A stretch of 64,000 nucleotides of DNA, from positions 1-64,000 of the forward strand of contig NZ_FNCE01000008.1 of assembly GCF_900100655.1 (NCBI RefSeq). Reading direction: 5' to 3'. The notes beneath the pieces are model-generated. The model saw only the letters and a list, made by a program, of their open reading frames with translations. It made no database searches and was not told the origin of the DNA. Positions 35,413 through 57,800 of this stretch are shown in pieces (the first letter of the stretch is position 1; every line of letters begins with the position of its first letter). Origin of the DNA: Limimonas halophila (GTDB lineage: Bacteria > Pseudomonadota > Alphaproteobacteria > Kiloniellales > Rhodovibrionaceae). Position numbers and translations under genes: made by a program.

Positions 35413-36438
35413 ATGCAGGCACAGCACGAGACTCATCCGGAAATCGCTAAATTAAGCGACATCCGAGCCATGCTCACGGACGATGCGCTTCTGTCAAAAC
35501 TTTTAACAAGTGTTCCGAAGAAATTACCTAGCACTCTTTCTTATACTGAGGAAGGGAGCCAGTATTTCGCTGAACTTTGCCATCAGCCCGAATACTATCC
35601 AGCCCACGTCGAGCGTAGATTACTTAAAACACACAGTGCAAACATTATTGACTACGTTAAGCCAAGTCAGATCGTTGATCTGGGATGCGGAAGCATGGAG
35701 AAGACTCAATTATTAATCCATGAAGCCATAAAAAAGCACAACCATATTAATTTTGTTCCCTGCGACATTGACCCTAACATTATACAAACTGGAATCTCCA
35801 AGCTTAATTATTTTTACGGGAACGAATTATCCATTTATCCTGTGCAAGGTTTATTCGAGGAGTGCATAAGCTGGTCCCCAAAGATAGATGGATCGACGCT
35901 ATTTACATTCATGGGACTGACCTACGGTAATATGACCCACGAAGAGCGTGACAGCTTCCTTCGTTTTCTCAGAACGAGCATGAATGGCGACGACTATTTC
36001 CTGCTTTCGGTTGATCTTGTGAAAGACCGCGCAACGATGGAAAACGCCTATCAAGACACGAACGGTCTGGTCGCCAAAAGCATGCTGGAATCGCTCAAAT
36101 TTTTAAATGCGTTTTACGATGCGGATTTCCTTTTGGACCAGTTTTACCACCTTGCCCAATATGAACCGGATCGCAGATGCATCGTTGAATATCTGGTCAG
36201 CCGGTGCCATCAAAGTGTGGAAATCCCGAAGCTCGGCCTGTCAATTGAAATACAAGAGCAAGAGCGCATTGAAGCTGAATTTAGCGAAAAATTTCTTTTC
36301 GAGGATCTCATTTCCGACTTGAGCAGATGGGGTTTTTGCCCGGCACAGACATACACCGATGTTGACATGCAATATGCGATGATCCTTTTGCATCGTGGGC
36401 GGCAAGTGGACGCGAATGCCCTTCGGAGCGCTGCGTAG
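35413..36438 (+). CDS. EgtD-like L-histidine N-alpha-methyltransferase (Methyltransf_33)
   Basis: 341 residues. YTEEGSQYFAELCHQPEYYPAHVERRLL matches the EgtD fingerprint (YDxxGSxLFxxITxxPEYYPxRxE), VDLGCGSMEKTQLL at 88-101 is the SAM-binding motif of the family, and FTFMGLTYGNMT replaces the FxGSTxGN segment. EgtD trimethylates histidine to hercynine, the first step to ergothioneine. No egtB homologue is nearby, so hercynine or another methylated amino acid may be the product. The gene is far AT-richer than its surroundings: the line 35521-35580 has 25 G/C of 60. Its divergent neighbour is an exporter. Horizontal gain is likely. Confidence 0.82.
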   Translation: MQAQHETHPEIAKLSDIRAMLTDDALLSKLLTSVPKKLPSTLSYTEEGSQYFAELCHQPEYYPAHVERRLLKTHSANIIDYVKPSQIVDLGCGSMEKTQLLIHEAIKKHNHINFVPCDIDPNIIQTGISKLNYFYGNELSIYPVQGLFEECISWSPKIDGSTLFTFMGLTYGNMTHEERDSFLRFLRTSMNGDDYFLLSVDLVKDRATMENAYQDTNGLVAKSMLESLKFLNAFYDADFLLDQFYHLAQYEPDRRCIVEYLVSRCHQSVEIPKLGLSIEIQEQERIEAEFSEKFLFEDLISDLSRWGFCPAQTYTDVDMQYAMILLHRGRQVDANALRSAA

Positions 36439-36896: not shown

Positions 36897-37670
36897 TCAC
36901 TGAATAGTTGTACCCGTGTACTTCTTGACGATGTTCTGAATCGTTCCGTTCTCTTTCAGTTTGGCGAGAGCCTTGTTCATCGCCTTGATTTCGTTCTGCG
37001 GCACGGATTTCTTGGAGAGCATAAAGTGAACCGGGGACGACTGAATCGTCACGCTCTGTTCGATCTTGTCGACGACGCCAGCCTGTTTCGCCTGATACCC
37101 GACCACGAAGGGGTTGCCGAGTGTACCGTCGGCGCGCCCGGCGGCAAGCATCTTGGCGTTGATCTTGATGCTGTCCGCTTTCGCGATCTGATCTTTATAT
37201 TTCTTATTGATGAGCGAGTCGACATTCTCGCCGTACTCAAATCCGCGAAGAACCCGCAGCTTTTTCCCCTTTGAAAGGAAGTCTTCGAGGCTGCTATACT
37301 CGGTGTTGTCGGATGAGCGCTTCCACAGCGCAGATTGAAACTTCATATACGGATCGGAAAAGTTCGCATATTTTTTCCGCTTTTCGTTTATATTGGCCTG
37401 GGTTCCGATGTCCACCTGACCCTTTTTAAGCATCAATTTTGTTCGCTTCCAGGGCATCTTCTGCCAACTGATTTCGCAGCCCATCTCCTCGGCAACAGCG
37501 CGCAGGATATCGGGATCGATCCCCTTGGGCCCGTCGTCGCCCGGCATCATGTACGGCGGCCAATTGTTCCACGCGGGCTTCAGCGGATCCTCGCAAGCGC
37601 CGGCCGCGGCCGTGTGCGCCGAGAAGCCGACGATCAACGTGGCAGCAACCGTGGCGATCCGTGCTTTCAT
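36897..37670 (-). CDS. Periplasmic binding protein, family 3
   Basis: 257 residues with a signal peptide (ATVAATLIVGFSAHTAAAG, cleavage near residue 24). Lobe 1 shows WNNWPPYMMPGDDGPKGIDPDILRAVAEEMGCEISWQKMPWKRTKLMLKKGQVDIGTQANINEKRKKYANFSDPY, the typical family 3 pattern with an aromatic pocket. No ABC permease is nearby. The next gene upstream on the same strand is a membrane chemoreceptor 81 bases away, so this protein may hand a ligand to that receptor or be its co-regulated partner. Confidence 0.88.
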   Translation of the reverse strand: MKARIATVAATLIVGFSAHTAAAGACEDPLKPAWNNWPPYMMPGDDGPKGIDPDILRAVAEEMGCEISWQKMPWKRTKLMLKKGQVDIGTQANINEKRKKYANFSDPYMKFQSALWKRSSDNTEYSSLEDFLSKGKKLRVLRGFEYGENVDSLINKKYKDQIAKADSIKINAKMLAAGRADGTLGNPFVVGYQAKQAGVVDKIEQSVTIQSSPVHFMLSKKSVPQNEIKAMNKALAKLKENGTIQNIVKKYTGTTIQ

Positions 37671-47680: not shown

Positions 47681-50600
47681 TCAGCCGAGCATCAAGCCGT
47701 CGTCGAGCGGCCCGGCGGTGAGGGCTTGTGCGTTTTCGGGCTCCAGCGCGGACGCGTCGCCGGGATCGAGGTTCACGGCGCCGGGATCGAAGCCGTCCCC
47801 GACGGCTTCGCCGCCGAGCTCGATCCGCACGCGGCCGTCCTCAACGCCGATCGCCGCCTCGGCCGAGCCGTCGGCGAAGGCCACCTCGACCTGGCCGTTC
47901 AGGCCGAGCTCCACGGTGGCGCCGTCGGCGCGGGAAATCGTCAGGGTGTTGCCCGCCGCTTCGACGGCGTAGGCGTCGATCGCGCGCGCCAGTTCGACGC
48001 GATCGCCGTCGCCGCCGGTGAAGCTCACGTCGCCGCTGGCCGGCACCTGGATCGTCTCGCTGGCGGCCGTGCCCACGACGCGAGCGGCGAAGGGCACCGC
48101 CTGGGTATCGCTCTGCCCGTCCAGGATCACGCGGTTGCCGCTGCCGTCGCCCTGCGGCAGCCCCGCCCCGTCCGGGTTCAAGTCGACCTGCGCCGGATCG
48201 AAGCCGTCACCCACGGTGACGCCCCCGAGCGTCAGGGAAATCCCGTCCGGGCCCGGCTGGACCGCGGCCGTCGCGCTGCCGCCGTCGAAGATCAGCGGGA
48301 CCTCGGCGTTCAGCGACACCTCCGCGCGCGTGCCGTCCGCGCCGTCGAACACCAGGGTGTTGCCGCCCGCGCTGACGTCGTAGTCGGTAAGCGCGCCCGG
48401 AAGCTGCACGACGTCACCCGCGCCCGGCCGCAGCGCCGCGATCGCGCCGGGCTCCAGGCGCACGCCCTCGGCGTCCGCCGTGCCGTTCACCTCGGCCGGG
48501 AAGGGCAGCGTGAGCGTCTGCTCGCCGCCACCCAGGACCACGAGATCCCGGGCCGGACCCACCGTCACCTCGGCCGTGGCCGTGGCGCTGCCGCCGCGGC
48601 CATCGTTGACGCTGTACTGGAAGCTGTCCGTCCCCGTGAAACCGGCGTCGGCGGTGTAGACGATCTCGCCCGCCTCGTTGACCCGGACCGAGCCGTTGGC
48701 CGGCGAGCTGGTGATCGCTGCGCTGAGGTCGTCGTCGTCGGGATCGGAATCGTTGGCGAGCACGTCCAGCGGCGCCGGCTCGGCGTTGGTGATGCGGAAG
48801 CTGTCGTCCTTGGCGACGGGCGGGTCGTTGACGTCGGTGACCTCGACCGTGGCCGTCGCCGAGGACGACGCGCCCGATCCGTTGCGCACGGTGTAGCCGA
48901 AGGTCGCCGTGCCCACGAAGCCGGCGTCCGGTGCAAAGGTCACCGTGGCGTCGTCGTTCACGCTCACCGTCGCGTTGTCGGGCGTGGATTGCAGCGTCAC
49001 GGAGGGGTCCACGCCGACGGGGATCTGGTCGTTCGCCAGGAGGTCGAGGTCGGTCTTCGTGCCCTCCTTCACCGAAAGCACGTCGTCGGCCGCGACGAGG
49101 TCGCTGGCGCTTTCCGTCACCTCGACGGTCGCCTGCGCCGTGGCGGTCACGCCCGCCTCGTTGGTCACCGCGTAGGTGAAGGTGTCCGTGCCGTTGAAGC
49201 CCGCGGCCGGGGTGTAGCTCACGGTGTTGTCGTCGGTCAGCGTGGCGGTGCCGTTGGCGGGCGGCTCGGCCAGTTCGATCGTGAGGCCACCGTCATCGGC
49301 CGCGCCGTCGTTCGCCAGGATCTCGAGCGTGACGTCCTCGCGGCCCTGGACGACGGTGAAGGCGTCGTCGGTCACCTCCGGCGGCGGGTTCACGCTGACC
49401 GTGACGGTGGCCGTCGCGGTTTCGCCGCCGGGGTCGCTGGCGACGTAGGTGAAGCTCGTCTCGCCCACGAAGCCGTCGTCGGGCGTGAAGGCGATCGTGC
49501 CGTCGCCCTGCGGCGTGGCCGTCGCGTTCGCCGGCGTGGTCTTGAGACTGACGTCGAGGTCGTCGCCGTCCGGGTCGCTGTCGTTCTCCAGCACCGCCAG
49601 CGTCGTGGTCTCGTCCGGCGAAACCCCGAAGGTGTCGTCCTTGGCGACGGGGGCCGAATTGCCGGGGGCGACATCGAAGGTCAGCGTCGCGGTGTCCTGG
49701 CGGCCGGTGCCGTCGCGCACGATGTAGGTCAGGCTGTCCGTGCCCGAAAAGTTCTCGCTGGGCGTGTAGGTGATCGTGCCGCCATCGGCTTGGGCGGTGC
49801 CGTTGTCCGGCGAGGACTGCAGGCTGACGCTGAGCTCGTCGCCGTCGTCCGGATCGCTTGCCAGCGGCTCGTCCCCACCGAGCACGTCGACCTGGGCTTC
49901 GCCGTTGAGCTCGACCGTGGCCTCGTCGTCCGTCGCGACCGGATCGTCGGGCTGCGGCTCGACGTCGATGGTCAGCGTCTTGGTGTCCGACGTCCTGTCC
50001 GTTTGATCGACGACCTGGAAGTCGATCGCGGCGAAGCCCGCGCCGTTGGCGTCCGCCGGCGGCTGATAGATCAGCCCGTCCGAGGCGATCGTGCCCGCGG
50101 CGATGGAGTCGCCGGCTTTCACGGCTTCTCCGTCGTCCGGCTGGCCGTTGCCGTTGGCGTCCCTGAAGAGCGTGCCCTCGCCGTCGCCGGGCATGGCCTC
50201 GATATCGACCGCCGCCAGGCCGTCGCCGCTGTCGGGATCGTCGAAGGGAAAGTCGTCCGCCTCGAAGACGAGCGTCTGGTCCTCGTCGATCTCGCGCGTG
50301 ACGTTTTCGCTGACCGGATCGTCCTCGACGCCCTCGACCTCGACAGGGACCGTCACGGTGTCGGTGGTGCCGGTACCATCGTCGACCCGGACGGTGAAGC
50401 TGTCGCTGCCGTCGAACTCCGTGTCGGGGGTGAACGCCGCATTGCCGGGCTGGCGCTCGATCGACCCGGTCGGGGCGTCGGCGATGGCACTCAGGCTGCC
50501 GTTCGTGGGCGCGTCGGTGACGGTGAACGACAGCGTTTGCCCGGTATCCGCGTCGCCCACCGCAAGCAGGGGCGCGATATCGATGTCGGTATCGCCCTCG

Positions 50601-51979
50601 GTGACGGTAAGCGGTTCGTCCAGTGTGCCGTCGTCGTCGGCGTCGCCGGTGAACTGCGGGGCCTGCCCGACGGTCCTGAAATCGAGCGTGTCGTTGTCGT
50701 CGATGCCGGCGAAATCGTTGGGGGTGCCGGTCGCAGTGTCCTCGTCCGTGATCGCGCCCGCGTCGATCTGGACGGCGAAGCGCGTCCCGGCGATGAGGTC
50801 GCTCGACGGATCGATGGTCAGCTTATCGCCGTCGATCGACACCGTACCGTCGCCGCCGCCCGTGTCGTTTTCAACGTCGAAGGATTCCGACTGCGAGGGC
50901 GCGTCGGGCGCGATCAGATCGATCGAGCCGCTGTCGCCGAAGTCAATGGGCTCGTCGAAGGTGAGCACCAGCGAATCGCCCGGCGGGTGGGCGATCGTGT
51001 CGTCGCCGGGATCGCTGTCCGCCAGGGTCGGCGGGGTGGTGTCGGTGACGCTGACCTCGGCCGTGACCTCGTTCGAGGAAAAGGTCTGGCTGCTGCCGTT
51101 GTTGCGCGTGTCGGCGGAGGTCGTACCGGTCGTTCCGACCGTGCCGTCCCAGGCGCGCAGGGTGAGCGTGTTGCCGCCCAGCGGATCGCCCGTGTCCTCC
51201 TCGTCGGGCAGGAAGCGCAGCTTGTCCTCAGGCGCCAGGAGCACCGCGCTTTCCTGGGAAACCGCGCTGAGATCGGCGAAATCCTGCCAAGTTTCACCGC
51301 TGTCGGTGGAGAATTCGAAGGTGCCGTTGTCCGCCTGAACGCCCGTCACGGCCGTGCCGACCTGTGCCGTATCGGTGTCCGGATCGCTCAGGTTCACGCC
51401 GCTCTTGCCGAGCACGTCCGAGACGGCCATGCCGTCAGGATCGCTCGCGTTCTGCTCCACGGTGTCCAGCCCCACCGTGGCCGCATCGACCGTGGGCGCG
51501 TCGTTGACCGGCGTGACCGCGACGGCGCTCGTTGCCGAACCGGTGTCGCCGCTCCCGTCGGTGACGGACAGCTCGACCGTGCGCTCGTCGCTGCCCGGCT
51601 GGTCGGTGGTGTTCCGGAAGGTGACGGCCTGCGCCAGCGCTCCCACGTTGTCTTCGCTGGCCTTGCCGTTGAGATCGACGGTCAGGGCGTCTCCGCCGGT
51701 GACCGTCCCGTCCCCGTCGGTTCCGCTGGTTTCCGTGACCGTGCCGATCGTCGTCGAATTGAAAACGAGATCGCCGCTGTTGATCGAAAAATCGCCGTCG
51801 GTGTCGATGGCGAGCTCGTCGTTGTCCTGCGCGTTCCCGGTCACCTGCACCGTTACCGAGCCGTCAGCGACATCGCCCGAGCCGTCGGGATCGCTCACGC
51901 TCGCGTTCGGATCGATGCGGGTGGCGCCATCGCCTTCGGTCCAGTCCAGATCGGCAAACGTGATGTCGGGCGTCGCCAT
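47681..51979 (-). CDS. Giant cadherin-like/tandem-95 repeat protein, probable secreted or surface adhesin
   Basis: 1,432 residues, strongly acidic and rich in Asp, Thr, Gly. N-terminal part: Ig/cadherin-like units with FEFSTDSGETWQDFADLSAV and LTLRAWDGT. Next, an SbsA-type Ig domain (TPPTLADSDPGDDTIAHPP ... DSLVLTFDEPIDFG). Then about six tandem-95-type units such as PVAKDDSFRITNAEPAPLDVLANDSDPDDDDL and PVAKDDTFGVSPDETTTLAVLENDSDPDGDDL, with Ca-binding DPDGDD strings. The last 240 residues are two copies of a unit that I do not recognise, each ending VGDGFDPxxVxLxPxG/D. There is no signal peptide and no RTX nonapeptide; type I secretion is a guess. ATG 51979 has CGGAG upstream. Confidence 0.9.
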   Translation of the reverse strand: MATPDITFADLDWTEGDGATRIDPNASVSDPDGSGDVADGSVTVQVTGNAQDNDELAIDTDGDFSINSGDLVFNSTTIGTVTETSGTDGDGTVTGGDALTVDLNGKASEDNVGALAQAVTFRNTTDQPGSDERTVELSVTDGSGDTGSATSAVAVTPVNDAPTVDAATVGLDTVEQNASDPDGMAVSDVLGKSGVNLSDPDTDTAQVGTAVTGVQADNGTFEFSTDSGETWQDFADLSAVSQESAVLLAPEDKLRFLPDEEDTGDPLGGNTLTLRAWDGTVGTTGTTSADTRNNGSSQTFSSNEVTAEVSVTDTTPPTLADSDPGDDTIAHPPGDSLVLTFDEPIDFGDSGSIDLIAPDAPSQSESFDVENDTGGGDGTVSIDGDKLTIDPSSDLIAGTRFAVQIDAGAITDEDTATGTPNDFAGIDDNDTLDFRTVGQAPQFTGDADDDGTLDEPLTVTEGDTDIDIAPLLAVGDADTGQTLSFTVTDAPTNGSLSAIADAPTGSIERQPGNAAFTPDTEFDGSDSFTVRVDDGTGTTDTVTVPVEVEGVEDDPVSENVTREIDEDQTLVFEADDFPFDDPDSGDGLAAVDIEAMPGDGEGTLFRDANGNGQPDDGEAVKAGDSIAAGTIASDGLIYQPPADANGAGFAAIDFQVVDQTDRTSDTKTLTIDVEPQPDDPVATDDEATVELNGEAQVDVLGGDEPLASDPDDGDELSVSLQSSPDNGTAQADGGTITYTPSENFSGTDSLTYIVRDGTGRQDTATLTFDVAPGNSAPVAKDDTFGVSPDETTTLAVLENDSDPDGDDLDVSLKTTPANATATPQGDGTIAFTPDDGFVGETSFTYVASDPGGETATATVTVSVNPPPEVTDDAFTVVQGREDVTLEILANDGAADDGGLTIELAEPPANGTATLTDDNTVSYTPAAGFNGTDTFTYAVTNEAGVTATAQATVEVTESASDLVAADDVLSVKEGTKTDLDLLANDQIPVGVDPSVTLQSTPDNATVSVNDDATVTFAPDAGFVGTATFGYTVRNGSGASSSATATVEVTDVNDPPVAKDDSFRITNAEPAPLDVLANDSDPDDDDLSAAITSSPANGSVRVNEAGEIVYTADAGFTGTDSFQYSVNDGRGGSATATAEVTVGPARDLVVLGGGEQTLTLPFPAEVNGTADAEGVRLEPGAIAALRPGAGDVVQLPGALTDYDVSAGGNTLVFDGADGTRAEVSLNAEVPLIFDGGSATAAVQPGPDGISLTLGGVTVGDGFDPAQVDLNPDGAGLPQGDGSGNRVILDGQSDTQAVPFAARVVGTAASETIQVPASGDVSFTGGDGDRVELARAIDAYAVEAAGNTLTISRADGATVELGLNGQVEVAFADGSAEAAIGVEDGRVRIELGGEAVGDGFDPGAVNLDPGDASALEPENAQALTAGPLDDGLMLG

Positions 51980-52149
51980 CGCAAGCGGCTCCGGTCGTTC
52001 GGGGTCGATGGGGCGGGAGCAAACAAAGTGCCAAGACCGGCGTTGCCACGCGGTTAACCGTGCGCCCCGAACGCCCCACATGCCGGGGCGGGCTCGCGCC
52101 GGAAGCGCGGGGCCGCTACCCTGAGCGCCCAACCGGGGACACCGCGCCC

Positions 52150-53145
52150 ATGCCCGAACCGCTCACGCCGCCGCAGGCGAGCAAATCCGACGGCAGCCCG
52201 CGCACGATCGGCGTGGAGCTTGAATTCGGCGGCCTGACCTGCGCCCACGCCGCCGCCGTGGTCGCGCGCCAACTCGGCGGCACAGTGCGCGAGATCGACC
52301 GCTACCGCTTCGTGGTGGACGGCACCGCGCTGGGCGCCATCCGCGTGGAGCTGGACACGCAGTTCGTCCACCCCGGCGAAACCACCGACCCCGAACAGCG
52401 CGTCGCCCTGGAACGCGAGCGCATGGGCGACCTGCTGGAAGGCGCGCTGCGCACCGCCATCGGCGAGGTGACGGCGCTCTACCTGCCCGTGGAGCTGGTT
52501 GTCCCGCCGGTGCCCGTGGCCAGTCTCCCCGAGCTGGACGCGCTGCTGCCGGCGCTGCGCGAGGCGGGGGCGCGCGACACCGGGGCCTCGCCCATCTACG
52601 GCTTCGGGCTTCAGCTCAACATCGACCCGCCCGATCTGGACCCGGCGACGCTGCAGGCGCTGATGCGCGCCTACGCCATCAGCGGCGCCCACCTGCGCCG
52701 CGAGATCGGCGTGGACTGGACGCGCCGCCTGCTGCCCTTCGTGGAGCCGTGGCCGCGCGCCTACCTGCGCGCCCTGCTCGCCGAAGAGACGGCCCCGGCG
52801 CTGAGCGCGCTGATCGACACCTACCTGACCCACAATGCCACGCGGAACCGCGACCTGGACCTGCTGCCGCTGTTCTTGTGGCTCGACCCCTCGCGGGTGC
52901 GCGCCGCCGTGAGCGACCCGCGCCTGCAGCCGCGCCCGGCGATGCACTACCGCCTGCCCGACTCCCGCCTGGAGGACCCGGCGTGGTCCGTCACCGGGGA
53001 ATGGAACCGCTGGGTGACGCACGTGGAGCGCCTGGCCGCCGATTCCGAGCGCCTGCGCGCGGCCGGCGCCGACTACCTGGACCGGCTGCGCGGCGACCGG
53101 CTGAGCGACTGGGCGGACCAGGTCGCGGCCTGGCTGGGGCTTTGA
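52150..53145 (+). CDS. Putative amidoligase (Amidoligase_2, glutamine-synthetase-like fold)
   Basis: 331 residues. RTIGVELEFGGLTCAHAAAV places Glu23 and Glu25 where the family binds Mg/ATP, and the next strands (TVREIDRYRFVVDG, AIRVELDTQFVHP, VPVASLPELDALLPALREAGA, SPIYGFGLQLNIDPPDLD) follow the Amidoligase_2 pattern. These ATP-dependent enzymes form amide bonds between amino acids or to proteins, but almost none has an established substrate. The next gene begins inside its stop codon and encodes a class-I amidotransferase-type hydrolase, the recurring partner of this family. ATG 52150 is preferred over ATG 52060, which would add 30 low-complexity residues. Confidence 0.85.
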   Translation: MPEPLTPPQASKSDGSPRTIGVELEFGGLTCAHAAAVVARQLGGTVREIDRYRFVVDGTALGAIRVELDTQFVHPGETTDPEQRVALERERMGDLLEGALRTAIGEVTALYLPVELVVPPVPVASLPELDALLPALREAGARDTGASPIYGFGLQLNIDPPDLDPATLQALMRAYAISGAHLRREIGVDWTRRLLPFVEPWPRAYLRALLAEETAPALSALIDTYLTHNATRNRDLDLLPLFLWLDPSRVRAAVSDPRLQPRPAMHYRLPDSRLEDPAWSVTGEWNRWVTHVERLAADSERLRAAGADYLDRLRGDRLSDWADQVAAWLGL

Positions 53146-53807
53146 CGGCGCGGCGGCCCCGCATCGGCGTCACGGGCTCGGCCGGGCGCGGCTGGTGGAT
53201 GTGGCTGTTCAACCGCGTGGCCGTCGCGCGGGCGGGCGGCACGGCCACGCGCCTGACGCCCGAAGACGGCGCGCGCGTCGACAACCTCGACGGCCTCATC
53301 ATCGGCGGCGGCGACGACATCGACGCGCGGCTGTACGGCCACGACCTCTACCTGGAGGTCCGCATCGACCCGGCGCGCGACGCGCTGGAGCTGCGCTGTC
53401 TGGAAGCGGCGGCGGCGCGGGGCATTCCCGTGCTCGGCATCTGCCGCGGCGCACAGATCCTCAACGTTTTTCGCGGCGGCACGCTGCACCCGGACATCGG
53501 TGCCGCCTATCCCGGGGTGCGGCGGCGGCGGACGACGCTGCCGCGCCTCTCGGTAACGGTAACGGCGGGCTCGCGCCTGCACGGGATTCTCGGGCTGACC
53601 CGGTGCCGTGTGAACGCGCTGCACCATCAGGCAATCGACCGCCTGGGCAACGGCCTGACGGCCGTGGCCCACGACCGCGCCGGTATCGTCCAGGCCGTGG
53701 AGGATCCGGCCGCGCCCTTCCTCGTGGGCCTGCAGTGGCACCCGGAATTCCTGGTCTTCAACCGCAGCCAGGCCCGGCTGTTCGCGGCGCTGGTGGATGC
53801 CGTCTGA
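53142..53807 (+). CDS. Class-I glutamine amidotransferase-like / gamma-glutamyl hydrolase (PuuD-like)
   Basis: 221 residues starting with TTG 53142, which overlaps the amidoligase stop (TTGA). PRIGVTGSAGRGWWMWLF is the family N terminus; the catalytic Cys101 lies in LGICRGAQ and His200/Glu202 in QWHPEF, so the triad is complete. It resembles peptidase C26 enzymes that split gamma-glutamyl bonds. As a partner of an amidoligase it could release ammonia or remove the ligated group. A later ATG (53200) would delete the first strand, which supports the TTG start. Confidence 0.82.
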   Translation: MTARRPRIGVTGSAGRGWWMWLFNRVAVARAGGTATRLTPEDGARVDNLDGLIIGGGDDIDARLYGHDLYLEVRIDPARDALELRCLEAAAARGIPVLGICRGAQILNVFRGGTLHPDIGAAYPGVRRRRTTLPRLSVTVTAGSRLHGILGLTRCRVNALHHQAIDRLGNGLTAVAHDRAGIVQAVEDPAAPFLVGLQWHPEFLVFNRSQARLFAALVDAV

Positions 53808-54396: not shown

Positions 54397-55314
54397 TCAC
54401 GCGACGAACGGCACCTCGCGGGCGGTTTCGCGCAACACGCGCGCGATGGCGGGCAGGTGGTCGGCCCAGGGGTGGCGGCGGCGCCAGACCATGCGCACGC
54501 GCCGGCCGGCCCTGGGGTCGACGATCGGGATGGCGCGCACGCTTTCCGGCAGCGGGCCCGTGGCGTGAACGGCGAGCGCGGGCAGCAGCGTCGCCCCCAT
54601 GCCGAAGGCGACCATCTGGCGCAGGGTTTCGATGCTGGTGGCGCTGAAATCGGCCTCCCACGGGCCCTGCCCGACGACCGTGGCGCACAGCTCGCGCGCC
54701 TGGTCGCCCAGGCAATGCCCGTCGGTGAGCAGCATCAGCGGCTGCTCCGCCACCTCGGCCATGGCCACGCTGTCCCGGTCCGCCAGCGGCCCGTCGGCGT
54801 GGCACAGGAAGTAGAAGGGCTCGTCGAACAGCACCTCGCCGTCCAGGCGCGCGTCGTCCGCCGGCGGCGTCGCCAGCAGCAGCGCGTCGTGCTCGTGCGC
54901 GCCCACGCCCGCCAGCAGCTCGTCCGTGGTCGCCTCGCGCACGGCGAGCTGAAGATCGGGAAAGGCGCGCTCCAGCGGCTTCAGACACAGCGGCAGCAGA
55001 TAGGGCGAGAGGGTGGGGATCACCCCCACCGCCAGCTTGCCGGAGAGCGGCCGGGAAAAGCCGCGCGCCATCTCGTCGAACCGCCCGGCCTCGTCCAGCA
55101 CCCGCCGCGCCTGCGCCACCAGCGAGCGCCCCTCGGCCGTGAGCGCCAGCGCGCGCCCCGAGCGCTCGAAGAGGGTCACCCCCAGGTCGTCCTCCACCTT
55201 CTTCAGCGCGCCCGAGAGGGTCGGCTGGCTCACGCCGCAGCGCGCCGCCGCACGCCCCACGTGGCCCTCGGCCGCGACGGCCGCGATGTAGCCCATCTCC
55301 CGCAAAGAGGTCAT
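54397..55314 (-). CDS. oxyR: Hydrogen-peroxide-sensing LysR regulator OxyR
   Basis: 305 residues, LysR type. The winged helix is at about 1-60 (VGRAAARCGVSQPTLSGALKKVEDDLGVTLFERSGRAL). The sensor Cys pair is Cys201 and Cys210 in LTDGHCLGDQARELC, the arrangement that forms the disulphide of active OxyR. It is transcribed away from katG, and a candidate operator lies between the two genes. Peroxide induction of katG through this regulator is the expected circuit. Confidence 0.93.
   Translation of the reverse strand: MTSLREMGYIAAVAAEGHVGRAAARCGVSQPTLSGALKKVEDDLGVTLFERSGRALALTAEGRSLVAQARRVLDEAGRFDEMARGFSRPLSGKLAVGVIPTLSPYLLPLCLKPLERAFPDLQLAVREATTDELLAGVGAHEHDALLLATPPADDARLDGEVLFDEPFYFLCHADGPLADRDSVAMAEVAEQPLMLLTDGHCLGDQARELCATVVGQGPWEADFSATSIETLRQMVAFGMGATLLPALAVHATGPLPESVRAIPIVDPRAGRRVRMVWRRRHPWADHLPAIARVLRETAREVPFVA

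Positions 55315-55382: not shown

Positions 55383-57800
<2,418 letters not shown>

Follow-up and report, generated by a model that had tools for sequence, protein, structure and literature searches.

A pair of overlapping genes in Limimonas halophila, one for a predicted amidoligase and one for a predicted amide hydrolase, raises the question of which bond the two enzymes form and break, and on which molecule. None of the amidoligases in this family has, to our knowledge, a firmly identified substrate. In the window (the whole 64,000-nucleotide stretch of DNA that was analyzed), the amidoligase gene P1 occupies 52150..53145 on the forward strand, running from an ATG at 52150 to a TGA at 53145, and encodes a 331-residue Amidoligase_2 protein with a predicted glutamine synthetase (GS)-like fold. 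P2 lies on the same strand at 53142..53807 (TTG at 53142, TGA at 53807) and encodes a 221-residue Peptidase_C26 protein of the PuuD-type gamma-glutamyl hydrolase group. Both reading frames were verified at 52150-53145 and 53142-53807 as first proposed, and the P2 start codon lies over the P1 stop codon in the forward-strand bases TTGA (53142..53145), an arrangement that suggests translational coupling of the two genes.

Predicted activities of the two proteins

P1 matched PF12224 in one single stretch (E 4.1e-50; 171.4 bits, cut-off 22) that joins residues 17-289 to positions 2-244 of the 245-position profile, and the GVELEF motif that had marked it as an amidoligase lies at residues 21-26. 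It is the one PF12224 match in its genome, and a search of NCBIfam at E 1e-5 returned zero matches. Across the loci described below, R18 and P113 were invariant in 73 of 73 P1 proteins, the window counted, as were ten charged or polar residues: E23, E25, D69, E115, N157, R232, D237, R262, H266 and R268. E23, E25, D69 and E115 are candidate acidic metal ligands, and loss of the Glu ligands, which had been proposed as a check on the amidoligase assignment, was seen in none of the 73 aligned proteins.

An AF2 model of P1 (pLDDT 88.1, pTM 0.87) was compared with known structures by VIA-align, and the top match was a glutamine synthetase (5dm3_E; Z 13.0, rmsd 3.8, 214 aligned residues, 9% identity). 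All 50 of the 50 VIA-align rows listed were GS-family proteins, including GmaS and the 1-naphthylamine GS, although VIA-align reports only entries ranked by Foldseek, and further families may lie beyond these 50 rows. Foldseek itself gave weak matches, the best to YbdK (E 0.047) with GmaS and yeast GS lower down. A profile search of P1 against PDB sequences gave no meaningful match, the best being an unrelated-looking protein at E 0.059, and hhalign of P1 against the four GS-family proteins of its own genome gave a probability of 0.25%. The likely GS-like fold of P1 rests on the VIA-align match to its model, with the sequence-level link to GS undetected. By eye, RPxxHYRLP in P1 resembles the GS motif RxExRxPD with His replacing Glu, a likeness read from the sequences rather than from a superposition; in the four GS-family proteins R356, E358 and R360 are invariant. 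Enzymes with the GS fold, such as GS, GmaS, PuuA and GCL, activate a carboxyl group as an acyl phosphate, in most cases the gamma-carboxyl of glutamate, and then join it to an amine.

P2 matched PF07722 at E 4.2e-44 (151.4 bits, cut-off 20.5) and the GATase family PF00117 more weakly at 43.7 bits. In a Foldseek search with its AF2 model (pLDDT 91.0), Lin1909, SpuA and PuuD chains filled the 14 best rows, with E from 1e-22 to 4e-17. Glutaminases of the CTP-synthase and GMP-synthase-like kinds trailed from 1e-13, and a profile search of PDB sequences likewise placed Lin1909, SpuA and PuuD as the best relatives. The complete Cys/His/Glu triad claimed for this protein was upheld, with C101, H200 and E202 invariant in 66 of 66 P2 proteins together with R102, G103, Q105, N158, H161, Q163 and Q184; the CRG elbow and the VN-x-x-H-x-Q motif of Lin1909 and SpuA are kept as well.

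Position 184 separates P2 from these relatives. It is Gln in 66 of 66 P2 proteins and Glu in the aligned Lin1909 and SpuA and, by eye, in both strong C26 paralogs of the same genome, which holds nine PF07722 matches, three of them strong. Gln184 marks the P2 subfamily, and because it replaces Glu, the substrate of P2 may be a different one. P2 also scored 68.8 bits against the PuuD equivalog NF008471, far short of the cut-off of 266, which makes it a relative of PuuD rather than an orthologous PuuD. PuuD-type C26 enzymes cleave gamma-glutamyl amides, and we take P2 for a predicted gamma-glutamyl hydrolase with its own specificity.

Tandem conservation across genomes

Within the window's family 3 of 3 genomes carry P1, and within its order 13 of 61 do. 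Wider samples contained PF12224 in 29 of 387 genomes for the window's class, read as Alphaproteobacteria, in 27 of 397 for its phylum and in 23 of 370 for the class of genome G755, read as Gammaproteobacteria. Presence across genomes is patchy. Loci were collected as wide regions around PF12224 matches plus one Sneathiella contig, and a BLAST match to P1 was required. This kept 56 of 59 discovery loci and 17 of 19 held-out loci, or 73 loci in 72 genomes with the window included; L081, L082, L134, L155 and L173, which match PF12224 without a BLAST match to P1, were left out, and PF12224 matches in G668, G552 and G1114 (a contig-edge fragment) lay outside the wide-region set.

A P2 gene lay directly downstream of P1 on the same strand in 66 of the 73 loci (51/56 discovery, 15/17 held-out), which bears out the claim that such pairs recur in bacteria. 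Gene order and strand were constant in all 66 pairs. With starts set by script near the expected position, 53 of the 66 overlap, 19 of them by exactly four bases, and a single pair lies more than 50 bp apart (73 bp). Distance matrices for P1 and P2 were correlated (Mantel r 0.74, with 0 of 2000 permutations as high), and the tandem, overlapping arrangement persists in at least two classes of the phylum. P1 and P2 are a real module that travels as a unit in many bacteria, and the window's locus is an ordinary two-gene member of this family.

In seven of the 73 loci no P2 was found beside P1. Two of these, L021 and L167, come from genomes in about 370 and 290 contigs. The other five (L078, L080, L132, L133 and L172) form one fully supported P1 clade (100/100) without a C26 partner. 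A conserved neighbourhood lacking the second gene had been proposed as a challenge to the pairing, and this challenge left the pairing standing: P2 is kept at 66 of 73 loci, although this one clade does without it. Members of this clade retain the invariant P1 positions, and R192 is replaced in three of the five, which hints at another specificity. A scan of IMG/VR with P1 motifs returned 10 pattern-matched stretches, none of which was confirmed as a viral relative, and a phage origin of the pair was set aside.

Candidate reactions and the neighbouring genes

From the observed families, conserved residues, synthetase-like P1 model, PuuD/SpuA-like P2 fold and tandem overlapping genes, we judge it marginally probable that P1 and P2 are a co-translated pair that makes and breaks a gamma-glutamyl-type amide, probably in the cytosol. 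P1 would use ATP to activate a carboxyl as an acyl phosphate, most likely the gamma-carboxyl of glutamate, whether free glutamate or glutamate that terminates a small molecule, and would join it to a primary amine. P2 would hydrolyze the same gamma-glutamyl amide through a thioester on Cys101, with Cys101, His200 and Glu202 as its triad. If P2 does cleave the product of P1, the level of the conjugate would be set by the balance of the two enzymes. We favor this model because of the ligation chemistry of the GS fold, the cleavage chemistry of C26 enzymes and the precedent of a ligase encoded beside the hydrolase of its product. Against it stand the missing sequence link between P1 and GS, Gln184, the score below the PuuD cut-off and the five-member clade without P2. 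As the acceptor, a small amine is our tentative first choice and a lipid head-group amine a weaker candidate; a peptide, protein or wall fragment seems unlikely, and something else equally so.

Neighbouring genes were compared by clustering at 40 loci and by a Pfam tally of the 111 genes directly adjacent to the pair at the 56 discovery loci, in which 25 of 138 families were listed. Neither the clustering nor the listed families gave a constant third gene, and apart from P1 and P2 the largest neighbour cluster covered at most 8 of the 40 loci. These data bear on the possibility that the pair assimilates or detoxifies a small environmental amine by gamma-glutamylation in the manner of the Puu, aniline and ethanolamine pathways. 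Such a role has the nearest chemistry of both folds behind it, and in both L063 and L078 an FAD oxidoreductase, PuuB/DAO-like by eye, is found near P1. No oxidase, dehydrogenase or amine permease was recurrent in the clustering, however, and none of these leads the listed Pfam tally, which leaves amine assimilation a possible but rather unlikely function. In L078 the oxidoreductase is directly downstream of P1, at the place of the missing C26 gene.

The family that does lead the listed tally is the VTT domain (PF09335; DedA/TVP38/YqaA), with 7 of the 111 adjacent genes. A profile built for this analysis assigned these to L020, L022, L024, L026, L070, L125 and L061; the VTT gene of L061 is 3.6 kb away and on the opposite strand. 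Seven of the 56 discovery loci, from four lineages, have a same-strand VTT gene immediately beside the pair, at a distance of about 90 bp or less: L020, L024, L025 and L026, which belong to one family, and L022, L070 and L125. A search of 54 of the 55 discovery genomes (G175 left out) found 241 VTT matches, or 4.5 per genome. By chance a flanking VTT gene would be expected at about 0.13 discovery and about 0.04 held-out loci, Poisson figures that ignore relatedness and give orders of magnitude.

The VTT lead arose post hoc, out of the tally of adjacent genes, and was recorded before the held-out neighbourhoods were retrieved, which comprised 19 new loci from G755's class, 17 of them matching P1. 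Here too, VTT outnumbered every other adjacent family (5 of 33 genes), and gene calls together with tblastn placed an abutting, same-strand VTT gene at 7 of 17 loci from seven different families (L156, L161, L162, L163, L164, L169 and a remnant in L165), or 6 of 17 with the remnant set aside. The VTT gene is on the pair's strand in 14 of 14 loci. The one in L162 was missed by the gene caller and recovered by tblastn, whose seeds were VTT proteins already found, so that more distant adjacent DedA types may escape it. In L157 and L158 a VTT gene lies 2.2 kb downstream. The L165 remnant (L165:10055-10279) is a 75-residue YqaA-like stretch that adjoins the pair, and a full-length match is present on another contig of the same genome.

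The linked VTT proteins are of two types, YqaA-like and TVP38-like, to which we gave the labels COG1238 and COG0398 by resemblance. On the P1 tree, which has many weak forks, the VTT label needs at least 11 changes, so the neighbour looks to have been gained or lost repeatedly. Six of the linked YqaA proteins were combined into a profile (A6), used at a threshold of 140 bits that was set after the two-peaked scores had been seen. It was searched against 65 of 71 P1-bearing genomes (omitting G007, G139, G175, G351, G516 and G570) and against two P1-less samples, one of 79 genomes and one of 80. Beyond the window's class, YqaA was present in 18 of 30 P1-bearing genomes, five of which (G498, G554, G574, G629 and G658) are not established members of G755's class, compared to 2 of 79 P1-less genomes of that class. 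After removal of five seed and three other linked genomes the counts were 10/22 against 2/79 (p 1.7e-6 by a Fisher test that ignores relatedness). Restriction to established members of G755's class gave 16/25 against 2/79, and 8/17 against 2/79 (p 6.8e-6, again with relatedness ignored) without seeds and linked genomes. Within the window's class, 17 of 35 P1-bearing and 15 of 80 P1-less genomes carried YqaA (p 0.0014, relatedness likewise ignored), a difference that was gone among genomes of at least 3 Mb (16/32 against 15/44, p 0.12), and co-occurrence in this class was dropped as support.

The recurrent DedA/VTT neighbour suggests a lipid or membrane-carried substrate for the pair and, indirectly, favors a link to the cell envelope. 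P1 and P2 could add a (gamma-glutamyl) group to an amino-lipid of the inner leaflet and take it off again, with the DedA/VTT protein moving the modified lipid across the membrane, by a logic like that of MprF. The abutting genes of both types, above the chance expectation in both sets, favor this, as does the co-occurrence of YqaA with P1 outside the window's class even where the two are unlinked. DedA proteins are described as lipid flippases or scramblases; in one review, COG0586 proteins are UndP flippases, COG0398 proteins are putative phospholipid flippases, and the COG1238 (YqaA) branch is called little known, with a substrate that is perhaps an uncharged or cationic lipid (PMC10127716). 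On the other side, gene calls and tblastn found no adjacent VTT gene in 59 of 73 loci, the window's among them. The three VTT matches in the window's genome (the two listed places are both on other contigs) include none to the YqaA subfamily by the A6 profile, the co-occurrence in the window's class vanishes under the control for genome size, and the DedA protein may carry cargo other than the conjugate. We regard a lipid target as unlikely. The fuller scheme, in which the amidoligase-C26 pair and a YqaA/TVP38-type protein carry out reversible lipid tagging, probably with gamma-linked glutamate on an amino-lipid that is moved across the inner membrane, is slightly less likely still.

The original prediction had pointed instead to a removable tag on a peptide, a protein or peptidoglycan, with the wall or the adjacent repeat protein as a possible target. 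That protein is encoded upstream of P1 on the reverse strand (47681-52132) by a 1483-residue ORF with Ig/cadherin-like (Big_9/cadherin-like) repeats, and taken as the longest ORF it lies 17 bp from P1; judged by eye, that start is set too far upstream, and an ATG near 51980 is the better candidate. Pup ligase is one example of a GS-fold ligase. The repeat gene is, however, on the strand opposite to P1, and none of the clusters that spanned at least three loci contained it. Big_9 was not among the families with at least two members in the tally (25 of 138 listed), where its E of 6.5e-95 would rank near the top of the two-member families. No recurrent small-protein gene was noticed either, very short ORFs lying outside the gene calls. 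The repeat protein was accordingly rejected as a conserved target. The idea of an attaching and removing pair keeps its families, candidate active sites and recurrence and loses this target, and we consider a peptide, protein or wall tag quite improbable.

Other genes around the pair did not recur in the clustering or the listed tally, with one exception. P2 is followed by a DUF302 gene (from 53905, forward strand), beyond which lie a LysR regulator (54397-55314, reverse strand) and a KatG-like catalase-peroxidase named by eye (55596-57800). A KatG-like gene is also directly upstream of the pair in L060, and with two loci involved this was treated as probable coincidence. About 5 kb from the pair, an N-formylglutamate amidohydrolase family protein (PF05013; 45571-46707, reverse strand) represents another enzyme family that acts on glutamyl amides. 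Further off, GC content falls to 0.54-0.56 between 34000 and 38000, compared to about 0.70, in a stretch that was possibly acquired and that holds, by eye, a methyltransferase-like ORF (35413-36438, forward strand) and a solute-binding-like ORF (36897-37670, reverse strand).

P2 might alternatively act as the glutaminase subunit of an amide synthase and supply ammonia with which P1 would amidate a carboxylate on some molecule; its relation to class-I GATases (PF00117), the overlapping genes that would suit a fixed complex and the likeness of the P1 fold to that of ammonia-using enzymes fit such a role, but gamma-glutamyl hydrolases are nearer relatives of P2 than glutaminases are, and five P1 proteins with the invariant positions do without P2, so the ligase is not always dependent on it. 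We retain ammonia donation only as a rival reading, as improbable as the tag, and prefer the make-and-break model for a gamma-glutamyl-type amide.

Comparison with known systems

The combination of Amidoligase_2 with a class-I GATase was reportedly predicted by Iyer et al. in 2009. Such pairs have since been reported and discussed with their function not tested, as far as the available parts of two papers go (PMC10580990, PMC10945688). The phage amidoligase and GATase in the first of these show the same pairing as P1 and P2, with PF13522 as the partner, whereas the partner of P1 is PF07722/C26 and the pair is chromosomal (PMC10580990). In the literature searched, outside which most subscription papers lie, no paper used "amidoligase" together with "DedA", or together with the full enzyme name of PuuD, and the association of P1-P2 with DedA is unreported as far as that literature goes.

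The operon link between amidoligase and DedA, which was upheld in the held-out set, joins two separate substrate questions into one, and a VTT neighbour in several lineages is a first testable clue to the pair's target. Lipid tagging, if true, would for the first time assign a substrate to the COG1238 DedA proteins and, along with them, to this family of amidoligases. The analogy here would be MprF, which combines lipid aminoacylation with a scramblase (PMC11980842). It is a working analogy that holds only if a modified lipid is the cargo of the DedA partner. The folds and chemistry of MprF are different.

The make-and-break model finds its nearest parallels in gamma-glutamylation pathways. 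P2 matches PuuD and SpuA of the Puu/Spu system (PuuA, PuuD/SpuA) in fold and motifs, and differs in having Gln184 at the SpuA Glu; no PuuB or PuuC lies between P1 and P2, and the window's genome has four GS-family and two other strong C26 proteins elsewhere. GlnA4 shows gamma-glutamylation chemistry on ethanolamine (PMC6529630). According to a further paper, the aniline system sets AtdA1, a GS-fold gamma-glutamyl-amide synthetase, beside AtdA2, a GAT-like hydrolase of its product, and the hydrolase role of NpaA2 in the 1-naphthylamine system NpaA1/NpaA2 is its authors' inference from AtdA2 (PMC11335346). The Atd and Npa ligases described there belong to the GS family and share an operon with a dioxygenase, whereas for P1 no sequence relation to GS was detected; both systems have in common with P1-P2 the arrangement of a GS-fold ligase together with a hydrolase of its product.
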